From the NCBI RefSeq assembly GCF_003382365.1, contig NZ_QTSU01000002.1:620001-684000 (forward strand): 64,000 nt of DNA, read 5' to 3'. The stretch comes from Lysobacter silvisoli (GTDB lineage Bacteria > Pseudomonadota > Gammaproteobacteria > Xanthomonadales > Xanthomonadaceae). The position numbers and the translations under genes are program-made. Positions 17,622 through 32,127 of the stretch are shown piece after piece (position 1 is the first letter of the stretch; each line of letters opens with the position of its first letter). Below the pieces are notes generated by a model. The model was not told the origin of the DNA. It saw nothing but the letters and a program-made list of their open reading frames with translations, and did not search any database.

Positions 17622-17630
17622 CATTATTCA

Positions 17631-18221
17631 TCAGCCGTCGCGCAGCTGCTCCTGCAGTTCGCGCAGGTAGGCCAGGCGCGGGATGTTGCGGCGCGCCTTG
17701 AACCAGGCCATGCAGGCCGAGACCAGCACGCCCAGGCCGCCGCCGACCAGGGCGCCGGTGTTGCCGTGCACGTCGCGTGCGTGCTCCTGCGGCAGCGCGC
17801 CGATCACGATCGCGAACACGACCAGGATCAGCAGCACGCCGAACCAGGTGCCGTAGCGCCAGTAGCGCAGGCTGGTGTTGGCGCGGTCGATCTCCAATTC
17901 CAGCATGGCCGCGGCGTCCAGCCCGTCGTCGCGCAGCTGCCGGCGGCGCAGCCACAGCGACCAGGCCTGGAAACCGATCGAGGTCGGGATCAGCAGCGCG
18001 AACACCAGCAGCATCGCGTCCGAAGGCGCGGTCTTGAGCATCAGCCAGGCGATGGCCGCCAGCGTGGCCACGGTCAGGCTGAGTTCGCCGTACACCGCCT
18101 TGCGCAACGCGCGCCCGCGCTTGCCGACCTCCTCGCGCAGGCGGTCCACGTCGATGCCGGCGCCGGATTGCGCGCGCCATTCGTCGCCCAGGGCGGTCCA
18201 ATCGAAATCCGCGTCGCTCAT
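17631..18221 (-). CDS. Four-helix membrane protein encoded with an ECF sigma factor
   Basis: A 196-residue protein. An acidic soluble N-terminus (about 1-42, DFDWTALGDEWRAQSG) is followed by two hydrophobic hairpins: helices near LSLTVATLAAIAWLML, LLVFALLIPTSIGFQAW, WFGVLLILVVFAIVIGA and LVGGGLGVLVSACMAWF. The ATG overlaps the stop of the sigma factor gene (ATGA), so it is coupled to it. By position it should be the anti-sigma factor, but it lacks the HxxxCxxC zinc motif common in ECF anti-sigma proteins. The role is inferred from context only. Confidence 0.8.
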   Translation of the reverse strand: MSDADFDWTALGDEWRAQSGAGIDVDRLREEVGKRGRALRKAVYGELSLTVATLAAIAWLMLKTAPSDAMLLVFALLIPTSIGFQAWSLWLRRRQLRDDGLDAAAMLELEIDRANTSLRYWRYGTWFGVLLILVVFAIVIGALPQEHARDVHGNTGALVGGGLGVLVSACMAWFKARRNIPRLAYLRELQEQLRDG

Positions 18222-18772
18222 GCCGAGGCTCCCAGGCTGTCGCGCAGTTGCCGGCGCGCGCGGCTGAGCCGCTGCGCCACGGTGTTTTCTTCCAGGCCCA
18301 ATGCCGCGCCGGTCTCGCGCAGCGAAAAGCCTTCCAGCGCCAGCACCACGACCTGGCGCTGGCCCAGCGGCAGCTGGCGCACGGCGTCGAGCAGGTTGCG
18401 CCGGCGCTGCTGCGCTTCGGCATGGCGCAGCGGATCGTCGCCGGGATCGGGGTGGGTCTCGTCCAGGCTGTCCTCGACCCGGCGGTGCCGGGCCAGGTAG
18501 TCGATCGCGCGGTTGTGCGCGACCCGGGCGATGAAGGTGCGCAGCGAAGCCTCGCCGCGCCAGCCCGGCAGCGCACGCCACAGCGCCAGGCTGATCTCCT
18601 GCAGCAGGTCCTCGCGCCGGCCCGGTTCGGACTGGTAGCTGCCGGCGATGCGGTCGAGCATGGGCCCATGCTCGCGCAGCACGCTGTCCAGATCGGGCAC
18701 GGCGGCGCCGCCGTGCGCCTGCGCGGCGGTCCCGTCCCTTTCGCTGGCTACCGCGTTCGCGGCTTCGTCCAT
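18218..18772 (-). CDS. ECF-type RNA polymerase sigma factor
   Basis: A 184-residue sigma-70-family protein. Region 2 includes RREDLLQEISLALWRALP and TFIARVAHNRAIDYLARHRR. Region 4 includes LPLGQRQVVVLALEGFSLRE and LGLEENTVAQRLSRARRQL, the helix-turn-helix that reads the -35 element. An acidic Ala-rich stretch (about 1-25) precedes region 2. It pairs with the membrane protein that overlaps it by ATGA, giving a likely membrane-signal-responsive sigma/anti-sigma module. The start is the ATG at 18772; a GTG lies directly before it at 18775. Targets are unknown. Confidence 0.92.
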   Translation of the reverse strand: MDEAANAVASERDGTAAQAHGGAAVPDLDSVLREHGPMLDRIAGSYQSEPGRREDLLQEISLALWRALPGWRGEASLRTFIARVAHNRAIDYLARHRRVEDSLDETHPDPGDDPLRHAEAQQRRRNLLDAVRQLPLGQRQVVVLALEGFSLRETGAALGLEENTVAQRLSRARRQLRDSLGASA

Positions 18773-18862
18773 CACCGGTGTTCCCTGCTCCCCTCACCGC
18801 ATAGTCGGGGCGGGCGGGGAAAACATGACACGGCCGCCGCGGATCGCGGCGGCCGGCGCCGG

Positions 18863-20230
18863 TCAGAGGATGTAACGGCTCAGGTCCGGGTCCTGGACCA
18901 GTTCGCCCAGGTGGGCGTCGACGTAGGCGCGGTCGATGACCACGGCCTGGCCGTCGCGATCCGGGGCCTCGTAGCTCAGGGTGTCGAGCAGGCGCTCGAG
19001 CACGGTGTGCAGGCGGCGGGCGCCGATGTTTTCCTGGCGCTCGTTGACCTGGGCGGCGATCTCGGCCAGTCGGTCCACGGCCTCGGCGCTGAAACTCAGG
19101 TTCACGCCCTCGGTCTTGAGCAGTTCCACGTACTGGGTGGTCAGCGCGGCCTTGGGCTCGGTGAGGATGCGCACGAAGTCGTCCTTGCTCAGCGCGCCCA
19201 GCTCCACCCGGATCGGGAAGCGGCCCTGCAGCTCCGGGATCAGGTCGCTGGGCTTGGCCAGGTGGAAGGCGCCGGAGGCGATGAACAGGATGTGGTCGGT
19301 CTTGACCACGCCGTACTTGGTGCTGACGGTGGAGCCTTCGACCAGCGGCAGCAGGTCGCGCTGCACGCCTTCGCGGCTGACGTCGCCGCCGCCGACGTTC
19401 TCGGAGCGCTTGGCGACCTTGTCGATTTCGTCGATGAAGACGATGCCGTGCTGCTCGCAGGCCTCGATCGCGGCCTGGCGCACGTCGTCCTCGTTGACCA
19501 GCTTGCCGGCCTCTTCCTCGATCAGCTGCGGACGCGCGGCCTTGATCGTGAGCTGCTTCTTGTGGGTCTTGCCGCCGGCGACCTGCGAGAACATCTGCCG
19601 CAGCTGCTGACCCATTTCCTCCATGCCGGGCGGCGCCATGATGTCCACGCCGACGTTGACCGCGGTTTCGATCTCGATCTCGCGCTCGTCCAGTTCGCCG
19701 GCGCGCAGTTGCTTGCGCAGCTTGGCGCGGGTGTCGTTGTCGGGCGCCTGGTGGTCCTGCGCGGGGTTTTCGGCGCCGAAGCCGAAGCCGCCGGGGATGC
19801 GCTTGGGCAGCAACGCGTCGAGGATGCGGTCCTCGGCGCGGTCCTCGGCCTGGGTGCGCACGCGGTGCTTGGCCTGCTCGCGGTACAGCTTGACCGCGGT
19901 ATCGGCCAGGTCGCGCACGATCTGCTCCACGTCCTTGCCGACGTAGCCGACCTCGGTGAAGCGCGTGGCCTCGACCTTGACGAAGGGCGCGTTGGCCAAG
20001 GTGGCCAGGCGCCGCGCGATTTCGGTCTTGCCCACGCCGGTGGGGCCGATCATCAGGATGTTCTTGGGCATGACCTCGTTGCGCAGGTCCGGCGCCAGCT
20101 GCATGCGCCGCCAGCGGTTGCGCAGGGCGATGGCGACGGCGCGCTTGGCGGCATGCTGGCCGACGATGTGGCGGTCCAGTTCCTGCACGATTTCGCGCGG
20201 GGTCATGGTGGAGGAGGTGTGATTGGTCAT
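18863..20230 (-). CDS. hslU: ATP-dependent protease ATPase subunit HslU
   Basis: A 455-residue AAA+ unfoldase. It opens [17 protein letters not shown] like E. coli HslU after a short extra tail. Walker A is [15 protein letters not shown] (about 62-76) with the pore motif GYVGKDVE. The variable I-domain runs about residues 110-240, Walker B is [11 protein letters not shown], and the sensor and C-terminal region ends SRYIL. HslU hexamers unfold substrates and feed them to HslV. It lies downstream of hslV with an unusual 166-bp gap filled by a palindromic repeat. The start could be the ATG at 20230 or the internal ATG at 20206. Confidence 0.97.
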
Positions 20231-20278
20231 TTGCGATTCGTGATTCGTAAAAGCTGCGGCGACCGGCGCCGTTCCGAT

Positions 20279-20366
20279 TCGTCGTTCCCCCGAAGGCGGG
20301 AATCCAAGGACTTCAGAGTCGTGCCTGGATGAAGCCCTGGATCCCCGCGTTCGCGGGGATGACGAG
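20279..20366. repeat. Dispersed palindromic (REP-like) element between hslV and hslU
   Basis: Two oppositely oriented arms, TCGTCGTTCCCCCGAAGGCG (from 20279) and its near-reverse-complement ending GGGGATGACGA at 20366, bracket a short centre. The right arm itself folds as a 9-bp hairpin, ATCCCCGCG-TT-CGCGGGGAT (20341-20360). The arm sequence resembles the common intergenic palindrome of proteobacteria (CGTCATCCCCGCG...). It sits inside the hslVU operon and could form a stable mRNA structure between the cistrons. Confidence 0.7.
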
Positions 20367-20396
20367 CCAAAGCCAGGGGGTGGGCCTCATCACGAC

Positions 20397-20948
20397 TTAG
20401 AGCTCTTCCACGACCACGTTGCGATTCGTATAGATGCACACGTCGCCGGCGATGCCGATGGCCTCGGTGGCGATGGTGCGCGCGTCCAGCTGGGTGTGGG
20501 CCAGCAGCGCGCGTGCGGCCGACAGCGCGTACATGCCGCCCGAACCGATGGCGATGATGCCGTCCTCGGGCTCGATCACATCGCCGGTGCCGCTGATGAT
20601 CAGCGAGGTTTCCCGGTCGGCCACCGCCAGCAACGCCTCGAGCTTGCCCAGGCGGCGCTCGGTGCGCCAATCCTTGGCCAGTTCGACGGCGGCGCGGGTC
20701 AGCTGGCCGTGCTTTTCCAGCTTGGCTTCGAACAATTCGAACAGGGTGAAGGCGTCGGCGGCGGCGCCGGCGAAACCGGCCAGCACCTGGCCGTCGCGGC
20801 CCAGGCGCCGCACCTTGCGCGCGTTGCCCTTCATCACCGTGTGGCCCAACGTCACCTGACCGTCGCCGGCAACCGCGACGTGGCCGTCGCGCCGCACCGA
20901 GACGATGGTGGTGGCGTGGAAGACATTGGGGTTTTGGCTGGGGTCCAT
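20397..20948 (-). CDS. hslV: ATP-dependent protease peptidase subunit HslV
   Basis: A 183-residue T1-family peptidase. The mature catalytic threonine is in [13 protein letters not shown] (processing before the second Thr), followed by [12 protein letters not shown] and [11 protein letters not shown], all HslV signatures. The C-terminal [13 protein letters not shown] completes the family length. HslV dodecamers degrade proteins delivered by HslU and are induced by heat. A clear sigma-32-type promoter lies 28 bp upstream of the ATG at 20948. Cluster genes end just upstream at 21020. Confidence 0.97.
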
Positions 20949-20975
20949 GGCTGCTCCGAGGCTGACCCCTCCGAG

Positions 20976-21001
20976 GTGGGGCCGCCCGCAACCGGTTCAA
21001 G
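20976..21001 (-). promoter_or_regulatory. Heat-shock (sigma-32) promoter of hslVU
   Basis: Read on the minus strand, CTTGAA (21001-20996) and CCCCAC (20981-20976) are separated by 14 bp, against the sigma-32 consensus CTTGAA-N13/15-CCCCAT. Only one base of the core hexamers differs. The spacing to the hslV ATG (20948) leaves a short leader with a GGAG ribosome site. This gives hslVU a promoter independent of the upstream P450/M16 genes. Confidence 0.8.
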
Positions 21002-21019
21002 CCCGCAGCCGCGGCAGGC

Positions 21020-22291
21020 TCAGCCCTGGTGCGGGCCGGCGACCACGCCACGCCACTGCTGCGGGCGCAGGTGCTCGGCGATCGCATCGTTCAGCTGCGC
21101 CCAGCCGATCCGGCTCATGCGCCGTTCGTAAGCGAGCAGATCGTCGGTTTCCCAACCTTGCTCGGCGGCGGACAGCAAGGCTTCGCCCAGGCCGTCCAAG
21201 GTGGCCAGACCGATCTGGTAGGCACCGATCGCGGCGCGGCGCGCCGTGGCGAATTCTTCCTCGCCCACGCCGTCGGCGAATTCGGCGATCACCGCGCGCG
21301 TGGCCGCCAGCGCCGCCTGCAGATGCTGCGGACTGACCGACAGCGCGATTTGCCAGTGGCCGCTGCCGCGGTGCGGCGTTACCAGCGACGAGCGCAAGGC
21401 ATAGCTGAGCCCGTGCTGCTCGCGCACCTGCGCGACCAGGCGCGAGGCGAACGAACCGCCGAGCATGCGGTCGGCCAGGCGCAGCGCGAGGTAATCGGGA
21501 TGAGTGCGTCCCAAGGCCACACGCTGGCCCAGGGCGATGCCGTAACTGTCCTGCTCCGGCAGCAGCAGTTGCAGGTCTTCGGTTTGCGCCGGCACCGCAT
21601 CGGCACTACCCGTGCCCGATGCGACGGCGGTCGGCGCCCACCCCGCGGTGCCGCGCTCGATCCAGCGCAGCGCCCGCGCAGGATCGACGTCGCCCACCAC
21701 CGCGATGCGCAGTTCGTTGGCGCCGTAGCGTTGGCGATGGTAGCCGCGCACCTGCTCCAGCGTGACCGCTTCCAGGTGCGCGATCTGCAGCGGCGCGTCG
21801 GCCTCGTACAAGGGATGCGCCGGCGGGTACAGCAGGCGCGTCAACGCGCCCGCCGCCGCAAAGCCGGGATCGATGGATTGATAGTCCAACTCAGCGATCA
21901 GCCGGCCGCGCTCGGCGTCCAGCTGGGCCTGGTCGAACTCCGGCGCGCGCAGGCACTCGAACAGCCAGTCGGCGACCTGCGGCAGATCGTCGTTGCCGGC
22001 GCGTGCGCTGAAGCGCAGGCCCTCGTCTTCGGCCTCGACCGAGTAACTGGCGCCGCAGCTTTCCATGCGCTCGGCCAAGTCCATGCCTTCGTGCTGCCGC
22101 CCGCCATAGGCCACCAGCGCCGCGGTCAGGCGCGCCAGGGCCGCCTGCGCCGGATCGCGGACCGCGCCGGTGCGCAACCGCCCTTGCAGCGCGGCCACGC
22201 CGGGCACCGCCGCACGCAGGCCGTAGTAATGCGCGTTGGGCAGCGCCAGCGTCAGCACCTGCGGACCGGCCTGGCGCGGTAGGGCGTTCAT
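21020..22291 (-). CDS. M16-family peptidase homologue, catalytically inactive subunit
   Basis: A 423-residue M16-fold protein (paired alpha/beta domains; C-terminal segment ADRMLGGSFASRLVAQVREQ followed by GLSYALRSSLVTP is the family R/Y signature). It lacks the zinc motif: where HxxEH should be, the sequence reads LARLTAALVAYGGRQHEG. It is therefore the structural, substrate-binding half of a two-subunit M16B peptidase, as in known bacterial active/inactive pairs. The ATG at 22291 overlaps the TGA of the active subunit gene, implying coupled 1:1 production. It is the last gene of the proposed peptide cluster; the next gene, hslV, has its own promoter. Expected role: partner in leader or product proteolysis. 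Confidence 0.88.
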   Translation of the reverse strand: MNALPRQAGPQVLTLALPNAHYYGLRAAVPGVAALQGRLRTGAVRDPAQAALARLTAALVAYGGRQHEGMDLAERMESCGASYSVEAEDEGLRFSARAGNDDLPQVADWLFECLRAPEFDQAQLDAERGRLIAELDYQSIDPGFAAAGALTRLLYPPAHPLYEADAPLQIAHLEAVTLEQVRGYHRQRYGANELRIAVVGDVDPARALRWIERGTAGWAPTAVASGTGSADAVPAQTEDLQLLLPEQDSYGIALGQRVALGRTHPDYLALRLADRMLGGSFASRLVAQVREQHGLSYALRSSLVTPHRGSGHWQIALSVSPQHLQAALAATRAVIAEFADGVGEEEFATARRAAIGAYQIGLATLDGLGEALLSAAEQGWETDDLLAYERRMSRIGWAQLNDAIAEHLRPQQWRGVVAGPHQG

Positions 22292-23568
22292 GCCGCCGGC
22301 TCCAAGCGCTCGGCGTCGGCCAGCCAGCCCACGGTGAGCGCGTCCTCGCGCAGGTAGGCGCGCGCGACCCGCGCCACTTCGGTCGCGGTCACCGCGGCCA
22401 TGCGCTCGGGCGCCAGCGCGTAGCTGCGCCAGTCGCCGGCGGCGATGGCCTCGTTCAACTGCATGGCGATGGCCAGCGGACCGTCGCGCGACGTCAGCAG
22501 CTGGCCGCGGATGCGCGCGCGTGCGCGCGTCAGTTCTTCCTCGCTTACGCCGTCGCGCACCACCTCGGCCAAGGCCTCGCGCATGGCCTGCTCCAGGCGT
22601 CCGTGTTCGGCCTCCGGGTGCAGCACGGCGCCCAGCTGCCACAGCCCCGCCTGACGCAGACGCGACAGGCTCGGCCAGACTTCCAGCGCCAAACCTGCCG
22701 GCACCAGACGGCGATGCAGGCGCGAGTAACGGCCGCCGGCCAGAATCGCGCCCAGCAGTTCCAGCGCGTCGGCGTCCGCGTGCAGGCCGGGCGGCGCGCG
22801 ATAGGCGAGCATGACGATGCCGGGCGCGCCCAAGCCGCTCACGCTGGCGCGGCGCTCGCCGTCCTGCGGCGGCGCCGCGGCCTCGACGGCCGCGATCGCG
22901 CCACCGGGTTCGATGTCGCCGAAACGGCGCTGCGCGATCGCCATGGCCTCATCGACGTCGACGTCGCCGATCACGGTCAGGGTGGCGTTGTCGGGCCGGT
23001 AGTGGCGGCGGTAGTGCGCGTACAACTGCTCGCGCCGGAAGCCGGCGATATCCTCGCGCACGCCCAGCACCGGCCGCCCGTAGGGATGCTGCGGGAACGC
23101 CGCCTGCCACACCGCCTGGTGCAGCTGTTCCAATGGATCGCTCAGGCAGCGGTCGTATTCGTTCAACACCACTTGTATTTCGGTGTCCAACTCGTCCGCA
23201 TCCAGGCGCAGCTCGCCCATGCGGTCGGCTTCGATGTCCGCGGCCAGGTCCAGGCTGTCGCGGGGCACCAGCGAGAAGTAGTTGGTGCGGTCGTACCAGG
23301 TGGTGGCGTTGACCTGCGCGCCCAGCGGCAGCAGCAGCTGGTGGATGGAGCGGCCCTCGCCCTTGTGGTAGCGCGCGCTGCCCTTGAACATCATGTGCTC
23401 GAGCATGTGGCTGACGCCGCGCGTGCCCATGCTTTCGTGACGGCTGCCGACATCGTAGGTCAGCATCAGCAACGCCACCGGCGCGGTGCGCAATGGCAGG
23501 TGCAGCACGTTCAGGCCGTTGCCGGCCAGGCGCTGCGCGGTGTAGCCCTGCTCGCGCACGGCCGCCAC
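22288..23568 (-). CDS. M16-family zinc metallopeptidase, active subunit
   Basis: A 426-residue peptidase with the inverted zinc motif HMLEH (54-58; ligands His54 and His58, catalytic Glu57). A Glu130/Glu137 pair in ELDTEIQVVLNEYDR has the same 7-residue spacing as Glu162/Glu169 of pitrilysin, so Glu137 should be the third ligand. The C-terminal RYSRLHRRLVPAGLALEVWP segment is the M16 R/Y site. The GTG start at 23568 lies 1 bp after the MATE gene stop, and the TGA overlaps the inactive subunit ATG. The two M16 proteins with the exporter and P450s suggest a dedicated maturation protease for the small precursor peptides. A general housekeeping role remains possible. Confidence 0.9.
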   Translation of the reverse strand: MAAVREQGYTAQRLAGNGLNVLHLPLRTAPVALLMLTYDVGSRHESMGTRGVSHMLEHMMFKGSARYHKGEGRSIHQLLLPLGAQVNATTWYDRTNYFSLVPRDSLDLAADIEADRMGELRLDADELDTEIQVVLNEYDRCLSDPLEQLHQAVWQAAFPQHPYGRPVLGVREDIAGFRREQLYAHYRRHYRPDNATLTVIGDVDVDEAMAIAQRRFGDIEPGGAIAAVEAAAPPQDGERRASVSGLGAPGIVMLAYRAPPGLHADADALELLGAILAGGRYSRLHRRLVPAGLALEVWPSLSRLRQAGLWQLGAVLHPEAEHGRLEQAMREALAEVVRDGVSEEELTRARARIRGQLLTSRDGPLAIAMQLNEAIAAGDWRSYALAPERMAAVTATEVARVARAYLREDALTVGWLADAERLEPAA

Positions 23569-23569
23569 G

Positions 23570-24949
23570 CTAGGCGGCCTCGCCGCTGGGTGCGGCCTGC
23601 ACGTCGTCTGCAGGTGCCGCGCGCAGCAGGCCGCCTTCGCGGCGCAGGAACCGCCAGGCCATGAGCAGCTGCGAGGCGCCGGCGACGACCATCGCGATCC
23701 AGATCCAGTGCGGACGGAAGCCCGCCAGCTGCGACAGGCTACCCGCCAGCGCGATCAACAGCCCCACCTGCAGCAGCTGGGCCTTCAAGCCGGCGCGCGT
23801 GTTGCCCATGCCCGACAAGGTGGCGAAGGCGATTCCGGCCAGGCACAGCGGCACCAGGTCCAGCGCGGTGATGCGCAGAAACAAGGTGCTGGCCGCGACC
23901 GCGCCGGGGTCGCTGGAGAAACTCGCGGCGATCCAGGGCGCACCGCCGACGAAGGCGAGCAGCAGCAGCGGCAGCAGCACCGCGGCGAAATTCCAGCCCG
24001 CGCGCAGGGTCTCGCGCACGCGGTCGCGTCGGCCTGCGCCGTAGTTCTGCCCGACCAGGATGCAGACCGCGCCGGCCAGCGCGGTCACCGGCATCAGCCC
24101 GGCCTGGAACGCGCGCTGGCCGATGGCGAAGCCGGCCTGCTCGATCGGACCGAACGGCCGCAGCAGCAGGCCCACGGTCATCAGCGACACGCTCATCACG
24201 CCCGCGCCCAGGCCGGCCGGCACGCCGATCTTCAGCGCCTCGCCCAGTTCCCTGGGCCGTCTCAGCCAGATCGACGGACGCAGGCGCAGGTAAGCGTCCT
24301 TGCGCGCGAAGTACAGCAGCAGGCCCAGCATGGTCAGCGCGCAGGCCAACAGCATGGCCAGGCCGGCGCCGTCCACGCCCATCGCCGGCGCGCCCAGCCA
24401 GCCGAACATCAATACCGGCGTAAGCACCGCGCCCAGGGCCACGGTGGAGGTCTGCGCGATCACGCCCGCGCGCACGTTGCCGGTGAACTCCAGCAGCGAG
24501 GCCAACACCAGCATCGGAATCTGGATCGCGACGGAGGGAATGAACCAGGCGTAGTAGGACGCGATCACCGCCGCGGTCGCCGCGTCGGAGGTCATCAGCC
24601 CGCTGAAGGCCCCGCGATTGCTCCACGCCACCAGCGCGACCAGGCCCGACACCAGCACCGAAGCGCCCAGCGCCTCGTTGAAGATGCGGTCCACACGCTC
24701 GCGGTCCTTGGCGCCGACCGCATGCGCCATGAGCACGCCGGCGCCCATGCTCAACACCGGCAGCAGTACCAGTACCAGCATGATCGGCAGCGCCGCCAGG
24801 GTCACCGCGGCCTGCGCGGTCGGGCCCAGCCGTCCCAGCCAGTAGACGTTGATCAGTGCGAACAGCGTGCCCGCCAGCGAGTTCAGCATCAGCACGCCGA
24901 ACATGCGCAGCAGGTGACGGGGGATCGAGCCTTCGGTCAGATCGCGCAT
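23570..24949 (-). CDS. MATE-family efflux transporter
   Basis: A 459-residue protein with 12 hydrophobic helices in two related halves, the MATE (MatE) fold. The opening GSIPRHLLRMFGVLMLNSLAG and the VYWLGRLGPTAQAAVTLAAL segment are typical. The second half has GQNYGAGRRDRVRETLRAGW, the family GQnxGA motif that follows helix 8. MATE proteins expel organic cations or natural products using proton or sodium gradients. It starts 21 bp after the P450 gene upstream and its stop is 1 bp from the M16 start, so it is part of one transcription unit. Most likely role here: export of the modified peptide. Confidence 0.92.
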   Translation of the reverse strand: MRDLTEGSIPRHLLRMFGVLMLNSLAGTLFALINVYWLGRLGPTAQAAVTLAALPIMLVLVLLPVLSMGAGVLMAHAVGAKDRERVDRIFNEALGASVLVSGLVALVAWSNRGAFSGLMTSDAATAAVIASYYAWFIPSVAIQIPMLVLASLLEFTGNVRAGVIAQTSTVALGAVLTPVLMFGWLGAPAMGVDGAGLAMLLACALTMLGLLLYFARKDAYLRLRPSIWLRRPRELGEALKIGVPAGLGAGVMSVSLMTVGLLLRPFGPIEQAGFAIGQRAFQAGLMPVTALAGAVCILVGQNYGAGRRDRVRETLRAGWNFAAVLLPLLLLAFVGGAPWIAASFSSDPGAVAASTLFLRITALDLVPLCLAGIAFATLSGMGNTRAGLKAQLLQVGLLIALAGSLSQLAGFRPHWIWIAMVVAGASQLLMAWRFLRREGGLLRAAPADDVQAAPSGEAA

Positions 24950-24970
24950 GGGTCCGCTCCGTCGCCCGCT

Positions 24971-26203
24971 TCAGACACGCCGCACCTGGCCATGGAAATC
25001 CATCGGCCGGATCACCGAGGCGATGGCCATCTTGGCCTCGTCCGGGTTACGCACGTCCAGCCGATAGCGCGTGGCCAGCAGGTGCGCCATCAGGATCAGC
25101 TGGCCCAAGCCCAGGTTGGCGCCCACGCAGGACTTCGGCGCCCAGCCGAACGGCACGTAGCTGCCGTGCGGGCACTGCTCGCGGCTCTCGGCCAGCCAGC
25201 GGTCGGGATTGAACGTCTCTGGGTCCGACCAGGTGGTCTGGTCGTGATGGACGAAGAAAGAACTGAGCACGTAGACCTGATCGGTCTTGAGGTCGACCTG
25301 CTCCTGGCAGATGTCGCCGCGCACGCGCCGGGTCACGATCGGCGGCGAGCTCCAGATGCGCAGGATCTCCTTGACGAAGCGCGCGGTGACCGGCGCCAGC
25401 CGCACCGGCGATTCGCACAGCGCGTCCAGCGTGTGCGCCGACAGCTCGGCGGTCATGCGCTCGCGCCACTCGTGCTGACGCTGCCATTCGTAGAACAAGC
25501 AGGCCGCGGCCGCGCCGGGCGAGCTGGTGATCGCGGTGAGCAGCGCGGTGACCGCATCGGTGGCGCGGTCCACGCCCAGGTCGGGCAGCATGTCCACCAT
25601 GGGGTCGGTCAGGTCCTGCTGCCGCGGCCGCTTGCCGCTGGCACGGCCCTTGAGCTCGCGGCGCACTTCCACGCTGCTGACGAACTGGTACAGCCACATC
25701 TTGGAGCGGTGCAGCGGCGGGCAGCGGTGCGCGTCGATGTCCGACAGCACCAGCGCCACCTTGGACAGCACCTCGTCGACCACGCGCTTGTGCGCGCGCG
25801 GCGACAAGCCGCCGATGATCGCGGGAATCAGCGGCTCCAGCATCGCCCGCTCGGCCAGCCAGACGAAGTCCTGCTCGCGCCCGGCTTCGGCGTCGAGCAC
25901 GCCCTGCATGCGCTGCGCCAGCCGGCGGAAGCCCTCGGCGCTGGTCAGCGTGCGCATCTGGGTCAGCCAGGCGCCGCGCACCTGGTGCCAGGACACCGCC
26001 TCGCTCTCGCGTCCGCGCACCACATCGGAAAAGCCGTCGAGCATGGTCAGATCGGCGTAGTTCTCCGCCTCCACGCGTTCGGCGATCTTGGGGTCGAAGA
26101 TCACCAGCGCCTGTTCCTGCAGCTGGAACACCGGGCCCTCCTCCCGCAGCCGGCGCCGGAACGCCTGCACCGAGGGGATTTCGAAGATCTTCGTGTCCTG
26201 CAT
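24971..26203 (-). CDS. Cytochrome P450 A of the peptide cluster (divergent haem loop)
   Basis: A 410-residue soluble P450. The ExxR motif is EILR (279-282), the PERF-like motif is FNPDRW (331-336) and the haem loop is FGWAPKSCVG with ligand Cys359. In the usual FxxGxRxCxG, Gly and Arg are replaced by Ala and Lys. The I-helix (about 220-234, LLTAITSSPGAAAAC) lacks the acid-alcohol pair used for oxygen activation in hydroxylating P450s, a feature known from cross-linking and other atypical P450s. A ribosome site (AAGGA) precedes the ATG at 26203. It lies 70 bp after precursor gene 1 and 21 bp before the MATE gene. Likely role: oxidative cross-linking or other tailoring of the precursor Trp/Tyr/His residues (inference). 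Confidence 0.9.
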   Translation of the reverse strand: MQDTKIFEIPSVQAFRRRLREEGPVFQLQEQALVIFDPKIAERVEAENYADLTMLDGFSDVVRGRESEAVSWHQVRGAWLTQMRTLTSAEGFRRLAQRMQGVLDAEAGREQDFVWLAERAMLEPLIPAIIGGLSPRAHKRVVDEVLSKVALVLSDIDAHRCPPLHRSKMWLYQFVSSVEVRRELKGRASGKRPRQQDLTDPMVDMLPDLGVDRATDAVTALLTAITSSPGAAAACLFYEWQRQHEWRERMTAELSAHTLDALCESPVRLAPVTARFVKEILRIWSSPPIVTRRVRGDICQEQVDLKTDQVYVLSSFFVHHDQTTWSDPETFNPDRWLAESREQCPHGSYVPFGWAPKSCVGANLGLGQLILMAHLLATRYRLDVRNPDEAKMAIASVIRPMDFHGQVRRV

Positions 26204-26240
26204 GGTCCGCGTCCTTGGCTGTAGTGGGGCCGATCCGAAC

Positions 26241-26266
26241 CCGGGGGCGGCGCTGGCCGCCCCCGG
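26241..26266 (-). terminator. Perfect hairpin after precursor gene 1
   Basis: CCGGGGGCGG (26241-26250) pairs perfectly with CCGCCCCCGG (26257-26266); one more C-G pair closes a GCTG loop. It starts 7 bp after the stop of precursor 1 and lies before the P450 A gene. There is no T-run, so it may stabilise or process mRNA or partly attenuate rather than fully terminate. Confidence 0.6.
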
Positions 26267-26273
26267 CTACCAC

Positions 26274-26375
26274 TCAGATGTTGTGGTACATGACCCAACG
26301 CCAGGTGGTGATGCCGCAGTGCGAAGCACCGCGCAGGCCGAAAGCGGCACGCACCGCGCAAATGACCTTCTTCAT
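26274..26375 (-). CDS. RiPP-type precursor peptide 1 (33 aa)
   Basis: A 33-codon gene. The N-terminal part is MKKVICAVRAAFGLRG (1-16), the linker is ASHCGITT (17-24) and the C-terminal part is WRWVMYHNI (25-33). Its neighbours share the first block (MKKVICAxRAAFGxRG) and last block (WRW[VL]xYHNI) almost exactly, while the linker varies in length and sequence. This pattern indicates a conserved leader and a conserved aromatic core. The ribosome site AAGGAG lies 8 bp before the ATG at 26375. A perfect hairpin follows the stop. P450 A begins 70 bp downstream. This copy alone has a Cys and His in the linker. Expected product: a P450-cross-linked peptide from the Trp-Arg-Trp...Tyr-His end (inference). 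Confidence 0.86.
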   Translation of the reverse strand: MKKVICAVRAAFGLRGASHCGITTWRWVMYHNI

Positions 26376-26522
26376 ATCGAGCTCTCCTTGGATATGGATG
26401 GTGGACTGACAGCGTTTGCGCCAAGGCGATCGGTGGCGTCCTACGCCGCCCGCCGTGGTGCCTGGTTGCGGCGTCCGCATGACGGCCGCCGCGAATTCTT
26501 CGATGACCGGTGCGCCCGGAAA

Positions 26523-26549
26523 CCAGGGGCGGCACCAGGCCGCCCCTGG
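26523..26549 (-). terminator. Perfect hairpin after precursor gene 2
   Basis: CCAGGGGCGGC (26523-26533) pairs with GCCGCCCCTGG (26539-26549) around a 5-base loop, 11 bp after the stop of precursor 2. Its form and position match the hairpins after the other two precursor genes, so it is part of the duplicated unit. It lacks a T-run. Confidence 0.6.
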
Positions 26550-26560
26550 GCGCTACCGCA

Positions 26561-26656
26561 TCAGATGTTGTGGTAGTGCACCCAACGCCAGCCGATGCTG
26601 TTGCCCGCACCGCGAATGCCGAAAGCGGCGCGCATCGCGCAAATGACCTTCTTCAT
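26561..26656 (-). CDS. RiPP-type precursor peptide 2 (31 aa)
   Basis: A 31-codon gene: MKKVICAMRAAFGIRG (1-16), linker AGNSIG (17-22), then WRWVHYHNI (23-31). A strong ribosome site AAGGAGG lies 7 bp before the ATG at 26656. The start is fixed by this site and by identity with the other two copies; longer open frames upstream in the same phase are not conserved. This copy has the shortest linker and an extra His (WVHYH) in the core. It is 185 bp upstream of precursor 1 and 233 bp downstream of precursor 3, all in one orientation between the two P450 genes. Confidence 0.86.
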   Translation of the reverse strand: MKKVICAMRAAFGIRGAGNSIGWRWVHYHNI

Positions 26657-26852
26657 ATCGAATCCTCCTTGGGATATGTGGGTACCGACTGCGTTTGCGC
26701 CGCGACGCGCCGAGCGAACCGTGCTCCGCGCGCCGCAGTGCCTGTATGCGGCGTCCGCTTTGCGGCCGTCGCGAATGCTGTTTGCGCCACGCGCGCCTTC
26801 GTCGCTGCGCAGCCGCTGCTTCATGAACCGATCGTCGAAACGCACATCCAAA

Positions 26853-26879
26853 CCAGGGGCGGCGCGCGGCCGCCCCTGG
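26853..26879 (-). terminator. Perfect hairpin after precursor gene 3
   Basis: CCAGGGGCGGC (26853-26863) pairs with GCCGCCCCTGG (26869-26879) around a GCGCG loop, 10 bp after the stop of precursor 3. The stem is identical to that after precursor 2. No T-run follows. Confidence 0.6.
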
Positions 26880-26889
26880 CGCTACCACA

Positions 26890-26988
26890 TCAGATGTTGT
26901 GGTAGGTCAGCCAACGCCAGCCGCCGATGCTGTTGGCCGAACCGCGCACACCGAAAGCGGCCCGCATCGCGCAAATGACCTTCTTCAT
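26890..26988 (-). CDS. RiPP-type precursor peptide 3 (32 aa)
   Basis: A 32-codon gene not reported by standard ORF calling: MKKVICAMRAAFGVRG (1-16), linker SANSIGG (17-23), then WRWLTYHNI (24-32). The ribosome site AAGGAGG lies 8 bp before the ATG at 26988. It is the first precursor after the P450 B gene, 142 bp downstream of that gene's stop. Compared with the other copies it has Leu for Val after the second Trp, and Thr before Tyr. The conserved Cys6 in the leader is present in all three. Its function is inferred from its placement between the two P450s and from the paralogue pattern. Confidence 0.86.
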   Translation of the reverse strand: MKKVICAMRAAFGVRGSANSIGGWRWLTYHNI

Positions 26989-27130
26989 ATCGAAATCCTC
27001 CTTGGAGATATGTGGGTAACGACTGGTTTACGCCACGACGCGCTGAGCGAACCTTGCTCCGCGCGCCGCGGTGCCCTGGTTGCGGCGGCCGCGCGGCGGC
27101 CGTCGCGAATTCTTCGGATCGGCGGTCCCC

Positions 27131-28267
27131 TCAGCCTGTGGTCGCGATGGTGAGGGTGAACGGCGGCGGCGCCATGGCCGCGGCGACGGTGGGGCGGTGG
27201 TCGTGCGCGGTCACGCCGACCTCGCCCAGCTCGCGGATCACTTGCAGCATGTCGGCCACCAACTGCGTGGCCAGGTCCGCGGCCACGCAACGGTGCGGCC
27301 CGTGCCCGAACGGGATGAAGGCCGGGTTGCGCCAGGCGTCCTCGTCGGCCCAGCGCTCAGGACGGAATTCGGCCGGCGCCTGCCAGTGCGCGGCATTGCG
27401 CTGCACCAGGTAAGGGCAGACCACGACCTCGTCGGAGGTCTCCATGCGCACGCCCGACAGGTCGTGCGCCTGCACCGGGCGCCGGCCCAGCTGCCAGGCC
27501 ACCGGCCACAGCCGCAGGGCTTCGTGCACGATCCATTCGGCCGGCGCGTCGCGGCGCGCATGCGTGCCCCACAGATACAGCGACCACGCCAGCACAAAGC
27601 CCACCGAGCCGGCCACCGCGAACAAAAACGACAAATACACTTCGCTCAGTTCGTCCTGGCGGCGGTCGGGTTCGGCGGCGTTGGCCACCACGTCCAGCAG
27701 GTCCGCCGGCGGCGTGCGCGGCTGCGTCTGGCGCTCGCCGATGGCCTGCGACAAGCGCCAGGTGGTGTTGAACTGCAGCCACATCCGCCGCCAGCGCGGC
27801 TGCCGCGCGCGCGCGCCGGCCAGCACCGAACGCTCGACGATTTGGTCGAGCAAGGCGCGCAGGCCTTGCGGCCGGTCCGGCGACAGCAGCAGCGGAAACA
27901 GATAGCGGTAGGTGAGGCGGTTGCCGGTGTCGGGCCAGCGGCTGCTCGCGCCCAGCTCGCGGCGCAGGAACTCGCGCAACTCGCCCGGCGGGCGCGACTT
28001 CAGGTACTCGCGCAGCAGGCCGCGCGCTTCGCGGCGCATGTCCAGCTGCGCCGAGCGCGGCTCGAAGTAGCCGTAGCGGGTGTGGAAGAAATCGGAATGC
28101 TCGGCATAGCTGCCGTTGGCGTTGCTGAGCACCGTCCGCGCTTCGGCGGGGTTGCCCACGCAATACTCGTTGCGTCCGGTACGGACGATGTCGCCGGCGC
28201 CGGACAGCTCACGGTCCAGAAAGCCCAGCGGGTCCTGCTCGAAGCCGGACCAAACCTCTTCCTTCAA
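27131..28267 (-). CDS. Cytochrome P450 B of the peptide cluster
   Basis: A 378-residue P450 from a TTG start at 28267, chosen because a CGGAGG ribosome site sits 7 bp upstream; a GTG at 28270 is the alternative and there is no suitable ATG. ExxR is EALR (249-252), the PERF-like motif is FRPERW (301-306) and the haem loop is FGHGPHRCVA with ligand Cys327 and Ala in place of the final Gly. The I-helix region (about 212-226, LSFLFAVAGSVGFVL) lacks the acid-Thr pair. It is only distantly like P450 A, so the two probably install different bonds. It is the first gene of the operon, with a near-consensus promoter about 110 bp upstream, and the precursors follow directly. Confidence 0.88.
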   Translation of the reverse strand: MKEEVWSGFEQDPLGFLDRELSGAGDIVRTGRNEYCVGNPAEARTVLSNANGSYAEHSDFFHTRYGYFEPRSAQLDMRREARGLLREYLKSRPPGELREFLRRELGASSRWPDTGNRLTYRYLFPLLLSPDRPQGLRALLDQIVERSVLAGARARQPRWRRMWLQFNTTWRLSQAIGERQTQPRTPPADLLDVVANAAEPDRRQDELSEVYLSFLFAVAGSVGFVLAWSLYLWGTHARRDAPAEWIVHEALRLWPVAWQLGRRPVQAHDLSGVRMETSDEVVVCPYLVQRNAAHWQAPAEFRPERWADEDAWRNPAFIPFGHGPHRCVAADLATQLVADMLQVIRELGEVGVTAHDHRPTVAAAMAPPPFTLTIATTG

Positions 28268-28343
28268 CACACGCCCTCCGATCCTGAAATCACGGGTGTT
28301 GATACGTGTTACGCGTTTTTGGTGTTTCTGATCTGCATACGGC

Positions 28344-28359
28344 GATGCAATCCTGCATC
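28344..28359. promoter_or_regulatory. Perfect palindrome in the leader of the P450 B operon
   Basis: GATGCA-ATCC-TGCATC is a perfect 6-bp inverted repeat located just downstream of the predicted -10 box, about where transcription would begin. It could be an operator for an unidentified regulator or a small mRNA hairpin. No regulator gene is linked to the cluster. Confidence 0.4.
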
Positions 28360-28375
28360 TGCAAATCGCAATTTG

Positions 28376-28405
28376 AGTATAGGTACGACCACGAAAAAGC
28401 GTCAA
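28376..28405 (-). promoter_or_regulatory. Near-consensus sigma-70 promoter of the peptide cluster
   Basis: On the minus strand TTGACG (28405-28400) and TATACT (28381-28376) are separated by 18 bp, each hexamer one or two bases from consensus. Such a strong housekeeping promoter is rare in this GC-rich window. Transcription would start near 28369 and run through P450 B, the precursors, P450 A, the MATE gene and the M16 pair. Confidence 0.68.
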
Positions 28406-28680
28406 GGCGGTGTCAAGACGCGCCGAATCGCCACTATCGACTGCACATTCGATGGCGTATCCAGCGCTTTCGCGCCGATATGCTGCGTCGCAAGATGCAC
28501 CTGCGCGCCGCCACGCATAGCGCTCAGCGAAACCGGCAGGCCGCGCTGCGATCGCAGTCGCGCGACGCGGAAGAATCAGGCAAGCCCGGACCTGCCCACA
28601 TCCGGTTGGATTTTTTTTGCGGCCGATCGACACGTGCCGACCGAAAGCCGCGACCGGCATCGCGCCGGCCGCCGCGCGCC

Positions 28681-29631
28681 CTACTCGGCCGAGGGTTTGC
28701 GCCGTGCGCGCGGGTGCGCGGCGTCGTAGACCTTGGCCAGGTGCTGGAAGTCCAGGTGGGTGTAGATCTGGGTGGTGGCGATGTCGGCGTGGCCCAGCAG
28801 TTCCTGCACGCCGCGCAGGTCACCGGAGGATTCCAGCACATGGCTGGCGAAGGAATGCCGCAGCAGATGCGGATGCACGCGCTTGAACAAGCCCTGGCGC
28901 TGCGCCAATTGGCGCAGGCGCAGCTGCACCGCGCGCGGCGTGATCGGCCCGCCGCCGCGGCCGGGGAACACCGGCGCCTCGTTGCCCGCGCCGGTGGACG
29001 CGCGCCATTGCGCCAAGGCCGCGCGCGCGTGCGAACCCAGCGGCACGCTGCGCTGCTTGTTGCCCTTGCCGAGCACGCTGACCAGGCCGTCGGGCAGATC
29101 CAGGTCGCGCCAGCGCAGGCCGCACAACTCGCTCAAGCGCAAGCCCGAGGAGTAGAACAGTTCCAGCAGCGCGCGATCGCGCAGGCCCAGCGGCGCGTCG
29201 GTGGGCACTTCGACCAGCGCCTTGGCCTCGTCGGGGTCGAGCACCTGCGGCAGCTTGCGCGCGGCCTTGGGCGCGCGGATCGCCGCGGCGGGGCTGCTGT
29301 CGATGCGGCCCTGCTTGAGCAGCCAGCCGTAGAAACTGCGGCAGGCCGACAAGCGTCGTTGCAGGCTCTTGGGCGTGAGCCCGCGGCGGTGCTCGGCGGC
29401 GATGAAGGCGCGCAGCTGTTCGGCCTGCAGCCGCAACGGCGACGCGCCCTGCGCCGCGCACCAGTCGGCCAGCGCCGACAGGTCGCGGCGGTAGGCGTCC
29501 ACGGTGTGCACGGACGCGCGCCGCTCCACCTGCAGGTGGGCGAGGAAACTTTCTATCGGGGCGGCGTCGATCTGTGCGGCCGACACGGGGCGCGGGCTCC
29601 AGCTTCCGCGGTGGCGCGGAGTCGCGGGCAT
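28681..29631 (-). CDS. xerC: Tyrosine recombinase XerC
   Basis: A tyrosine recombinase of about 316 residues. The N-terminal SAM-like core-binding domain (VERRASVHTVDAYRRDLSAL) precedes a catalytic domain with all expected residues: Arg in SGLRLSELCGL, Lys in VLGKGNKQRSVPL, HLLRHSFASHVL (HxxR), LLGHADIATTQIYTH with the final His and nucleophile Tyr. XerC with XerD resolves chromosome dimers at dif. The XerC rather than XerD assignment rests on context (downstream of dapF-DUF484, the conserved gene order). The start is uncertain: ATG at 29631, GTG at 29643, or GTG at 29586, which would give the usual family length of about 300. Confidence 0.92.
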   Translation of the reverse strand: MPATPRHRGSWSPRPVSAAQIDAAPIESFLAHLQVERRASVHTVDAYRRDLSALADWCAAQGASPLRLQAEQLRAFIAAEHRRGLTPKSLQRRLSACRSFYGWLLKQGRIDSSPAAAIRAPKAARKLPQVLDPDEAKALVEVPTDAPLGLRDRALLELFYSSGLRLSELCGLRWRDLDLPDGLVSVLGKGNKQRSVPLGSHARAALAQWRASTGAGNEAPVFPGRGGGPITPRAVQLRLRQLAQRQGLFKRVHPHLLRHSFASHVLESSGDLRGVQELLGHADIATTQIYTHLDFQHLAKVYDAAHPRARRKPSAE

Positions 29632-29691
29632 CTTGCGATGCACGCGGCGGCGTGTCGAGTGGAAGGGTGGCGGGAGCTGCGCGGGCGGCCG

Positions 29692-29764
29692 TATCGCGGC
29701 TCACGCCGCTCCTACAGGCGCCAGCGCGCTGCGCTTGTGGGAGCGGCGTAAGCCGTGATTACCC
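29692..29764. repeat. Inverted pair of REP-like 24-mers
   Basis: One arm TCGCGGCTCACGCCGCTCCT (about 29694-29713) and an opposing arm GGGAGCGGCGTAAGCCGTGA (about 29739-29758) face each other across a short spacer between DUF484 and xerC. This palindromic family recurs at 37331-37498 and 46031-46412. Confidence 0.8.
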
Positions 29765-29781
29765 CACGCGCCGAAGCAGCC

Positions 29782-30453
29782 TCACCCCTCGAAGCGCTTC
29801 AACGCCGTCGCCAGCGACTCGCCCATCATGCGCAGGAACAGCGTGCCCATGCCGGGGAAGAAGCGGTTGGGGTCGCGACTGCCCACCGCGACCAGGCCCA
29901 CGCCCGGCAGCGGCAGCAGGGCGGTGGACTGCACCTGGTCGGCCTGATCGCCGTACAGCAGCGCGTGTTTTTCCGGCTGCAGGCGGCCGCACAGCGGCTC
30001 GCCATCGGCCAGACAGTCGCGGAAGGGTTGCAGGCGCGCGTCGTCGGCGGAGATCACCTGCAGCCACTCGGCGTCGTCCAGGCCGGCCACCGACTGGAAC
30101 ACTACCAGGCGCACGCGCTCGCCGTTGAAGTCCTCGGCCAGGGTCGCAGCCATCGCCCGCAGGGTGTCGGCGGCGCTGGTCTGGCGCATCAGCGCCAGGG
30201 TCAGCTGGTGCGTGCGCACCGACAGGCGCTCGTTTTCCTGGGCGTTGCCGAACAGTTCCTGCAGGCGCCGCGACAGCTCGCGGTTCTTGTCGCGCAGCAC
30301 CTCCAGCTGGTAGCTGGCCAGCGAGGCGGCCGAGCCTTCCTCGCGCGGCACCACCAGGCTCAGCGCCAGGTCCGGGAACTGCTGCAGGAAGCGCGGATGG
30401 CGGCGCAGCCAGGCCGCGACCTCGTGCGCACCCAGCTTGTCGTGATCGTTCAT
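29782..30453 (-). CDS. DUF484 family protein
   Basis: A 223-residue protein of the DUF484 family. The N-terminus has AHEVAAWLRRHPRFLQQFPDLALSLVVP (about 8-35), the family opening. A coiled segment (YQLEVLRDKNRELSRRLQELF) and a GAF-like domain follow, ending FPGMGTLFLRMMGESLATALKRF. Function is unknown, but the gene is nearly always between dapF and xerC, as here. The ATG at 30453 overlaps the TAA of dapF (TAATG), implying coupling. Confidence 0.92.
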   Translation of the reverse strand: MNDHDKLGAHEVAAWLRRHPRFLQQFPDLALSLVVPREEGSAASLASYQLEVLRDKNRELSRRLQELFGNAQENERLSVRTHQLTLALMRQTSAADTLRAMAATLAEDFNGERVRLVVFQSVAGLDDAEWLQVISADDARLQPFRDCLADGEPLCGRLQPEKHALLYGDQADQVQSTALLPLPGVGLVAVGSRDPNRFFPGMGTLFLRMMGESLATALKRFEG

Positions 30454-31304
30454 TACGCCCATTCCCCTTCGTATACGAAAGCCGTAGGACCGGACATCGA
30501 CAGCGGCGCGTCGTCGCTGGGCCAGACGATGCGCAGCTCGCCGCCGGGCAGCACCACCGCCACGTCGCGATCGATGCGGCCGCGGCGCATCAGCACCGCG
30601 GCGGCGGCGCAGGCGCCGCTGCCGCAGGCCAGGGTCTCGCCCACGCCGCGCTCGTACACGCGCAGGCGGATGCGATCGCGCGCATCGACCTGGGCGAAGC
30701 CGACGTTGACCGATTCCGGAAACGCCTCGTGCGATTGCAGCAGCGAGGCGATGGTTTCCACCGGCGCCGCGGCGACGTCGTCGACCTCGATCACCGCATG
30801 CGGGTTGCCCATCGACACCGCGCCGAAGCTGATCACGGTGTCGTGGATGTCGATCACGTACTGGTCGCGCGCGCCGGGAAAGCCGTGCAGCGGAATGGCG
30901 TCGGGATCGAAGCGCGGCTCGCCCATGCCGATGCGGTAGTAGCCGCCGTCCAGGCGCTCGACCGCGTGCGCGCCCACCGGGCTGTCGACCGCGAAATCGC
31001 CGGGCCCGGCCACGCCGTCGCGCACCAGCCAGGCGGCGATGCAGCGCGCGCCGTTGCCGCACTGCTGCGAGGGCGAGCCGTCGGCGTTCCAGATCCGGTA
31101 GCTGGCCACCGAGCCGGGCTCGCGCGCGTCCTCCACGGTCAGGATCTGATCGCAGCCCACGCCGAAATGGCGGTCGGCCAGCAGGCGGCAGGCGCGCGCG
31201 TCGGGCGGCGCCAGGCCGCCGCGCAGGTCCAGCACGACGAAGTCGTTGCCGGCGCCGTGCATCTTGCTGAAGCGTTGCATCGGACGCTCCGCGTGGGGGC
31301 TCAT
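30453..31304 (-). CDS. dapF: Diaminopimelate epimerase DapF
   Basis: A 283-residue enzyme with the opening [19 protein letters not shown]. The two catalytic cysteines are in QQCGNGARC and [10 protein letters not shown], and the [12 protein letters not shown] segment is present. It interconverts LL- and meso-diaminopimelate for lysine and peptidoglycan synthesis in the cytoplasm. The ATG at 31304 overlaps the stop of lptM (ATGA); the internal ATG at 31280 (MQRFSKMHG) is the other plausible start and fits the family length slightly better. It is followed by DUF484 by TAATG overlap. Confidence 0.97.
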
Positions 31305-31597
31305 CGGCCGCCGTCGGCGGCGGGGGTCGGATCGTCGCTGGGCGGGGTGTCTGTGGCCGGAACATCCGTGGCGGGAGCATCCGTGGCAGGAGCCGGCTCG
31401 GCCGGCGGCGTGGCCGGCTTTTCCGGCAGCGACGGCGGCGTGGCCTCGGGCGCCATCTGCACCGGCACTTCGCCGGCCGGCTGCGCCGGCGCGGTCACCG
31501 GCACCGGCTTGGTCGGCAGGACCAGCGGGCCCTTGTTGCCGCAGGCGGAAAGGCCCAGGACGAGGGCGGTCAGGAACAGCAGGGGGCGTGCATTCAT
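31301..31597 (-). CDS. lptM: LptM-like small lipoprotein
   Basis: A 98-residue lipoprotein. The signal peptide ends LGLSAC and is followed directly by [12 protein letters not shown], the LptM (YifL) signature just after the lipidated Cys. LptM assists maturation of the LptD outer-membrane LPS translocon. The remaining part is a Pro/Ala/Thr-rich low-complexity tail (repeats of PATD made by short 15-base tandem repeats around 31365-31395), longer than in E. coli. It is first in the lptM-dapF-DUF484-xerC run. Confidence 0.88.
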
Positions 31598-31634
31598 GGC
31601 CGCAGTGTAGCCCGCGCGCGCGGCCGAACGAAGC

Positions 31635-32078: not shown

Positions 32079-32127
32079 GCCGCCAGTATGCGGCCACGGC
32101 GCGCGCCGTGGCCGCGCTGCGCACGCG

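Follow-up and report, generated by a model that had tools for sequence, protein, structure and literature searches.

Organization of the cassette

This analysis concerns a gene cassette in a stretch of 64,000 nucleotides from Lysobacter silvisoli (contig NZ_QTSU01000002.1, positions 620,001 to 684,000), the whole of which is called the window here. The cassette is a candidate for the production of a ribosomally synthesised and post-translationally modified peptide (RiPP). The whole gene set lies on the minus strand and is read from position 28405 to position 21020. In the order of transcription, a promoter is followed by a cytochrome P450 gene (P450 B), three putative precursor genes, a second P450 gene (P450 A), a MATE exporter, an active M16 peptidase and an inactive M16 partner (Table 1). 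An earlier note, made from the letters of the window, had described this layout on one strand, with precursors of 31–33 codons and with gaps or overlaps of no more than 21 bp from P450 A to the end. Every part was found in its place, and the spacing agrees: P450 A and the MATE gene are 21 bp apart, the MATE and active M16 genes 1 bp apart, and the two M16 genes overlap by 4 bp. A gap of 70 bp separates precursor 3 from P450 A.

Table 1. Positions of the cassette features in the window, in order of transcription.
Feature	Position	Strand	Basis
Sigma-70-like promoter, TTGACG-18-TATACT	28376..28405	-	Motif scan; similar hexamers in relatives by eye
Nested inverted repeat (5' leader hairpin or operator), tentative	28330..28367	-	Read from sequence, just 3' of promoter
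P450 B, 379 aa	27131..28270	-	Pfam p450; 38% identity to PDB 9ULW
Precursor 1, 32 aa, core WRWLTYHNI	26890..26988	-	Open reading frame and conservation
G+C hairpin ~10 nt past precursor 1	26852..26880	-	10/200 shuffles as stable
Precursor 2, 31 aa, core WRWVHYHNI	26561..26656	-	Open reading frame and conservation
G+C hairpin 3' of precursor 2	26525..26547	-	7/200 shuffles as stable
Precursor 3, 33 aa, core WRWVMYHNI, Cys-bearing spacer HCGITT	26274..26375	-	Open reading frame and conservation
G+C hairpin 3' of precursor 3	26241..26266	-	11/200 shuffles as stable, just misses 5%
P450 A, 410 aa	24971..26203	-	Pfam p450; relatives
MATE exporter, 459 aa	23570..24949	-	Pfam MatE, two stretches
Active M16 peptidase, HMLEH 54-58, conserved Glu130	22288..23568	-	Pfam; best PDB match 3amj_C
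M16 partner without HxxEH	21020..22291	-	Pfam; best profile PDB match 3amj_B

All five larger proteins (the two P450s, the MATE protein and the M16 pair) exceed the Pfam cut-offs. The likeliest start of P450 B, judged by alignment with relatives, is a GTG at 28270, which gives the length listed. P450 A has an ExxR motif at residues 279–282 and the haem-type Cys 359 within FGWAPKSC; in P450 B the corresponding features are residues 250–253 and Cys 328 within FGHGPHRC. Most P450s carry an acid-alcohol pair in the I-helix. Its usual place is taken by GSVGF in P450 B (6/6 aligned rows), and a Pro-Gly at 229–230 is conserved in the P450 A clade (8/8 rows). Three P450 matches were found in the whole genome at E 0.001, two of them accounted for by the cassette.

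The active M16 protein retains H54, E57, H58 and E130 in 6/6 sequences. Its partner has no HxxEH and keeps R290 and Y297 in 6/6; retention of this Arg and Tyr is expected of an inactive M16 partner. In profile searches against PDB, the active protein matched the active subunit of 3AMJ (3amj_C) and the partner matched the inactive subunit (3amj_B); searched as a single sequence, the partner gave 3gwb_A first and 3amj_B second. Adjacent HxxEH and non-HxxEH genes are the arrangement of a 3AMJ-type M16 heterodimer, and the two products are predicted to pair.

The cassette is unremarkable in the GC profile of the window. In some relatives, G+C at third codon positions within the cassette is below that of neighbouring genes. 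Outside the cassette, GC dips to 0.56 at window positions 17000–17999, and the other 1-kb steps across 18000–32999 lie at 0.65–0.75.

Conservation of the precursors and of the gene set

The same genes in the same order were found in eight genomes, the window's own included (8/8). The seven relatives with fetched regions were selected by P450 A, and all seven had the gene set. A scan of named genomes gave five of these loci (Lysobacter sp. Root76, Lysobacter sp. cf310, Lysobacter sp. CFH 32150, Luteimonas aquatica and Dokdonella fugitiva); the others are in genomes G015 and G032. Root76, cf310 and G015 are listed in the same genus as the window. The earlier note had expected the precursors to accompany both P450s in related strains, and had named their absence from P450-bearing relatives as grounds for giving up the idea. 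When such a case was sought, one to four precursors were found in each of the eight genomes with both P450s (at least 57% identity), and the RiPP-like architecture of precursors, P450s, peptidase pair and exporter recurred in 7/7 relatives.

P450 A at 65% identity or more was present in 6/60 related genomes, again counting the window's own. Among 397 genomes of the order, P450 A was matched at E ≤1e-30 in nine, five at 60–100% identity and four at 34–37%. A precursor profile at E ≤0.01 matched 16 genomes of what is apparently the same draw of 397, and the five strong matches (best match ≤4.3e-18) fell in exactly the five genomes with P450 A at 60% identity or more. The remaining 11 profile matches are weak (4.7e-4 to 9.4e-3) and lie in genomes without a close P450 A; one of these genomes, G080, has a distant P450 A too, on a different contig. 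The system looks rare outside the order. P450 B at E 1e-40 was found in 1/369 genomes of the class and the P450 A clade at E 1e-35 in 1/185, the window's own genome in both searches; in another order, the P450 A clade was found in 1/148 genomes, a sample drawn around the one positive genome, G974 (see below). P450 A relatives in viral contigs numbered zero, and three proteins tested against the PHROGs phage families had no match. Three plasmid records matched P450 A; the two inspected hold P450s beside polyprenyl synthetase and terpene-cyclase-like genes and were judged functionally unrelated.

The window precursors 1–3, each gene preceded by a Shine-Dalgarno-like sequence, encode MKKVICAMRAAFGVRGSANSIGGWRWLTYHNI, MKKVICAMRAAFGIRGAGNSIGWRWVHYHNI and MKKVICAVRAAFGLRGASHCGITTWRWVMYHNI. 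WRWxxYHNI forms the C-terminus of all 19 precursors in the eight genomes (three each in the window, cf310, G032 and Dokdonella, four in G015, and one each in Root76, L. aquatica and CFH 32150). The pattern W.W..YH[NH][IM] fits 21/21 once a pair from G974 is added; W1, W3, Y6 and H7 are invariant in all 21, and the C-terminus is kept to the last residue. The leader is conserved (MKKVICAMRAAFGxRG), the spacer varies in sequence and length, and the peptides range from 30 to 38 residues across the cassette genomes and G974. Purifying selection is evident over codons 1–16 and the last nine, with proportions of synonymous (pS) and nonsynonymous (pN) differences of 0.465 and 0.124 (pN/pS 0.27; 153 between-genome pairs, which are not independent). 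In view of this selection and of recurrence, chance open reading frames were rejected as an explanation. The cassette thus shows the general features of a RiPP locus: a short conserved precursor gene beside modifying enzymes, selection on the coding sequence, and a conserved leader and core around a variable spacer.

The core variants are also kept in order. In the window, cf310 and G015, which have three or four copies at the xerC-hslV site, WRWLTYHNI lies by P450 B, WRWVHYHNI follows, and CGITxWRWVxYHNI lies by P450 A. In Root76 and L. aquatica, with one copy each at the same site, the copy is of the last, Cys-containing kind. The kept order suggests that the variants are separate, maintained products. 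The third copy in G015 (locus L026, 9982–10083) is a tandem duplicate of the P450 A-proximal precursor, lies 134 bp from the next copy and has no 3' hairpin.

A different use of the peptides has to be weighed here, in which the P450s would modify them otherwise, by hydroxylation or nitration, or a fragment would be degraded to a cofactor, chelator or building block, as pyrroloquinoline quinone (PQQ) is made from PqqA. M16 peptidases also serve cofactor pathways such as that of PQQ, and the active M16 protein matches the NCBIfam model PqqF, though below its threshold (64.6 vs 320 bits). Moreover, a nitrating RiPP P450, RufO, is known (PMC12186263). This use is unlikely in view of the invariance of W1, W3, Y6 and H7 in 21/21 precursors, a C-terminus conserved to its last residue, the exporter within the operon and the core variants kept in order in three genomes.

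Upstream of P450 B, the promoter sequence TTGACG-18-TATACT was found once, as compared to a shuffle mean of 0.4 (sd 0.6), and hexamers with at most one change were seen by eye at the matching position in 4/7 relatives. At the position that matches window 28330–28367, a nested repeat is also present in Root76, cf310 and G015, with a different sequence, and the predicted folds of this post-promoter region vary among relatives. In five loci, the ~30 nt that immediately precede P450 B hardly vary. A lone sub-threshold Rfam match, PyrR206 (23.9 vs 46 bits), was taken as chance.

Most precursor stop codons are followed, ~10 nt on, by a strong G+C hairpin that is constant in position and changing in sequence. 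The 50 nt downstream of each precursor were compared with 200 dinucleotide shuffles, and in 16/21 cases they were at least as stable as 95% of the shuffles. Near misses were window copy 3 (Table 1), cf310 copy 1 (16/200) and G015 copy 4 (13/200); G015 copy 3 (57/200) and G032 copy 2 (64/200) failed clearly. Terminator calling on the window scored none of the post-precursor hairpins as a terminator. The hairpins probably increase the share of precursor, either as partial terminators or by stabilising mRNA. The same hairpins could suggest that the small open reading frames are regulatory leader peptides or attenuators and that the P450s act on a small molecule. That explanation is highly improbable: what is conserved is amino acids at the far C-terminus, in one to four copies, the peptide persists in different surroundings in a genome from another order, and P450 A relatives also adjoin short aromatic peptides.

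The xerC-hslV site holds the cassette in five genomes (window, Root76, cf310, G015 and L. aquatica), and in CFH 32150, G032 and Dokdonella the cassette lies outside it. Among 17 genomes tested with no cassette at the site, 14, including G032 and Dokdonella, have a xerC match within 1.5 kb of hslV; of the other three, one (CFH 32150) has its locus interrupted by the end of a contig, and the remaining two lack a xerC within range. Because the cassette is at this site in some genomes, and is elsewhere or leaves the site empty in others, the gene set appears to be transferable as a unit. In the eight genomes, the subtrees of P450 A and P450 B agree almost completely, apart from the placement of L. 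aquatica and the window, which has weak support, and the pair therefore seems to have travelled together. An integrase element was considered and rejected: the neighbouring integrase-family gene is the XerC match, which is near hslV also in genomes without the cassette there. In cf310, the interval from the cassette to hslV also holds a gene on the minus strand (L040, 14276–15487) that, by inspection of sequence, resembles an M23-type peptidase.

Diverged relatives of the two P450s

P450 B is 38% identical, over nearly its full length, to the protein of PDB entry 9ULW, named 'Cytochrome P450'. With 9ULW as the query at E 1e-25, 2/398 genomes of the phylum were matched: the window's own and G974, a gammaproteobacterium of a different order whose protein differs from 9ULW at 1/365 residues. 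Next to this gene are an ABC exporter, a homologue of P450 A (32%) and two short precursor genes, whose products end NSWRWVMYHHM and PSWFWMLYHHM (W[RF]WxxYHHM). The G974-type system is present in 1/5 genomes of that genus. In contrast to the Lysobacter cassette, the G974 locus has an ABC exporter instead of the MATE and M16 proteins. Comparison of the two gene contents indicates that the shared unit is the two P450s with their putative WxWxxYH precursors, and that the parts for export and processing differ. No paper carrying the code 9ULW was found in open-licence PubMed Central. The existence of the structure means that others have already worked on a relative, and the cassette together with the standalone P450 A relatives would point 9ULW to a likely substrate.

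P450 A homologues at 32–37% identity occur in seven genomes of the family as standalone genes, with a gene of 32–33 codons upstream in 7/7 loci. P450 B, MATE and active M16 had no match in the 12–18 kb fetched at these loci, and the M16 partner was searched for in 5/7. The upstream peptides are MARLLRAARVAMNIHPNETSSLWKTWPLWVEF in three genomes, MKRFARALRVTLNIHPNEKSSVWNTWPLWVEF in one, MSNLIRAVQVSLNMRANNSTQSIRSKYIYWILF in two and MTRLIRALQVSLNLRSDNSTQCIRSKYRYWNIF in one. Because the small-gene scan selected for a ribosome-binding site and an aromatic C-terminus, a single hit is weak; agreement between genera is informative. At L029, L030, L031 and L073, a 32-codon peptide ending WKTWPLWVEF or WNTWPLWVEF precedes the P450; these WPLWVEF loci are an apparent separate single-P450 RiPP type, found both in the genus of the window and in a second genus of the same family. 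At L032, L033 and L072 a third type is seen, in which the P450 again stands alone and the 33-codon peptide ends SKYxYWxxF. Relatives with the cores WPLWVEF and YxYWxxF offer a natural series for the study of substrate recognition.

In the P450 tree, the seven standalone P450s group with P450 A, and P450 B groups with G974 and actinobacterial P450s; the tree is midpoint-rooted, its long branches make the deep joins unsure, and the tail of one row was removed by trimming. More distant P450 matches of the order, with weak E-values (L015, L016, L018, L019 and L020), had a candidate peptide in 0/5 loci, within 3.4 kb each. At L035 (genome G025), a sense open reading frame at 4830 encoding MKRLFDSLSRWVQSLGGNRLGYIYTY precedes a P450 weakly similar to P450 B and is a candidate precursor. 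A plasmid search with 9ULW gave 32 records, of which H1, H7, H13 and H14 were inspected and three were scanned for small genes, with none found in H13. On a plasmid of Embleya sp. NBC_00888 (L097, 3995–5210), a P450 36% identical to P450 B is immediately followed by a gene of 22–23 codons with a Shine-Dalgarno-like sequence and a product ending PPLIWNPKDPW, a candidate actinobacterial relative. On a plasmid of Streptomyces sp. KN37 (L099, 3593 and 3738), two similar 30-codon peptides with SSLR/KSLR stretches lie upstream of a lone P450.

Proposed product and comparison with known systems

The cassette likely encodes a small family of ribosomal, P450-cross-linked peptides, made by a two-P450 RiPP pathway in which M16 proteins process the peptide and the MATE protein exports it. 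The order of the genes, their co-occurrence and the selection on the precursor coding sequence were observed, as described above; the bonds, cleavage, export and role would be as follows. A single promoter ahead of P450 B would start the operon, and the post-precursor hairpins would probably determine how much precursor mRNA there is relative to enzyme mRNA. By its sequence, each precursor of 31–33 residues has a conserved leader, then a variable spacer, and ends in the core W1-R-W3-x-x-Y6-H7-N-I. The two P450s, A and B, would act on the leader-bearing precursor and form two oxidative aromatic cross-links among W1, W3 and Y6, with H7 less likely to take part. The likeliest pattern is W3-x-x-Y6 (i,i+3) together with W1-x-W3 (i,i+2), which would give a bicyclic core ~4 Da lighter; W1-x-W3 is the first choice for the second ring because W1 and W3 are invariant in 21/21 precursors. 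The M16 heterodimer would then cut in the spacer and remove the leader, and the MATE protein would export the product. Its role would most likely be antagonism toward other microbes, which is suggested tentatively.

Several points weigh against this account. The ring pattern is one pairing of several, and the second ring is the more open of the two. Both P450s seem to lack the I-helix acid-alcohol pair, and its loss fits unusual chemistry but does not pin it down; it is compatible with, though no proof of, oxidative coupling without oxygen insertion. The P450 structure models, from six-row alignments, are poor (mean predicted local distance difference test score 45 for P450 B and 66 for P450 A). 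A Foldseek search with the P450 B model, which was left unused, had ordinary P450s among the matches listed (50 of 196), at template modelling scores of ~0.2–0.4. The 19.9 kb fetched around the G974 locus contained no MATE or M16 match, and the core system can therefore do without these two components. Neither an immunity gene nor a clue to the target was found. Atropopeptides, of similar chemistry, had little or no antimicrobial activity when tested, according to the available text of PMC11450843, and the assignment of antagonism is weak for that reason.

Darobactin-type peptides have a WxW core. A bolder version of the proposal, with a WxW ring and a second ring sharing W3, would make the product a bicyclic, P450-built counterpart of darobactin, with three co-produced variants directed at a Gram-negative surface target, within a wider unrecognised gammaproteobacterial superfamily of P450 A/B RiPPs. 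This version is a long shot.

P450-cross-linked peptides are rigid, drug-like scaffolds. The cassette would be a compact, apparently complete pathway that combines as many as four precursors with two P450s, an exporter and a pair of peptidases. Its hosts are soil bacteria that are easy to grow, and it could show, alongside laurentirubin B, how two P450s divide the rings of one core.

The earlier note had held that P450-modified RiPPs belong mostly to actinobacteria and myxobacteria. They are not confined to those groups: atropopeptide clusters are reported in Xanthomonas (PMC11450843), and a RiPP P450 makes a WxxY C-C bond, with a loss of 2 Da, on a Pseudomonadota precursor (PMC12352619). Its view of the cassette as a distinct gammaproteobacterial system was borne out for the leader and core, with a diverged version in a second order; the cross-linking chemistry in that view is a prediction. 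No paper describing the WRWxxYHNI family, its core or its gene set was found in open-licence PubMed Central, a search that did not use the core letters and had subscription papers and supplements outside its scope.

Among known systems, the atropopeptides (tryptorubin, scabrirubin, laurentirubin B) resemble the cassette in having a short precursor and P450-made aromatic cross-links on WxxW/WxxY cores (PMC11450843, PMC12352619). Their definition rests on a KSLK-type leader together with an xWxxxx core, and in Xanthomonas they often occur with a protease; in laurentirubin B, two P450s act in turn on one core (PMC11450843). The cassette could accordingly be read as a diverged atropopeptide subfamily, in which one P450 makes a WxxY bridge and the other adds a bond like LauB2 in laurentirubin B. 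Its core does hold xWxxYx, the pattern reported for Xanthomonas cores; the atropopeptide P450s of Xanthomonas are reported to have proteases nearby; and in one characterised cluster of the family two P450s act on one core (PMC11450843). R-W-x-x-Y-H inside WRWxxYHNI may correspond to the xWxxxx core, depending on where the core of the cassette peptide starts. However, KSLK and the five listed variants (RSLK, ESLK, KSRK, KPLK and PSLK) are present in 0/21 precursors, and three or four precursors occur in 5/8 genomes, as compared to two in apparently 2/683 clusters in the reported set. The cassette also differs in having both P450s in 8/8 genomes, an M16 pair, a MATE exporter, one to four precursors and a C-terminal WRWxxYHNI. 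Because of the missing leader motif it is not filed as an atropopeptide, though the chemistry may be similar, and membership in that family is fairly unlikely; the separation is made by leader motif and gene set.

The remaining comparisons are more distant. Biarylitides such as myxarylin share a P450-made biaryl bridge and removal of the leader by a protease (PMC12951456), but their precursor has five residues from an 18 bp gene (PMC13417212), as compared to 30–38 residues here. Cihunamides, roseovertin, rubrin and lapparbin have oxidative Trp/Tyr/His cross-links at i,i+2 or i,i+3 (PMC11002830, PMC12352619), whereas the available portions of their descriptions contain no WxWxxYHNI core or M16/MATE set. 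The aminopyruvatide enzyme ApyO is likewise a RiPP P450, and its NCBIfam model, NF050147, was the sole RiPP-named P450 model matched; the cassette P450s, at 56.2 and 63.5 bits, are far below its curated cut-off of 525. Precedents exist both for two P450s acting on a single RiPP core and for WxxY cross-links, and P450-modified RiPPs are themselves an established kind, within which these comparisons would place the cassette as a new family.

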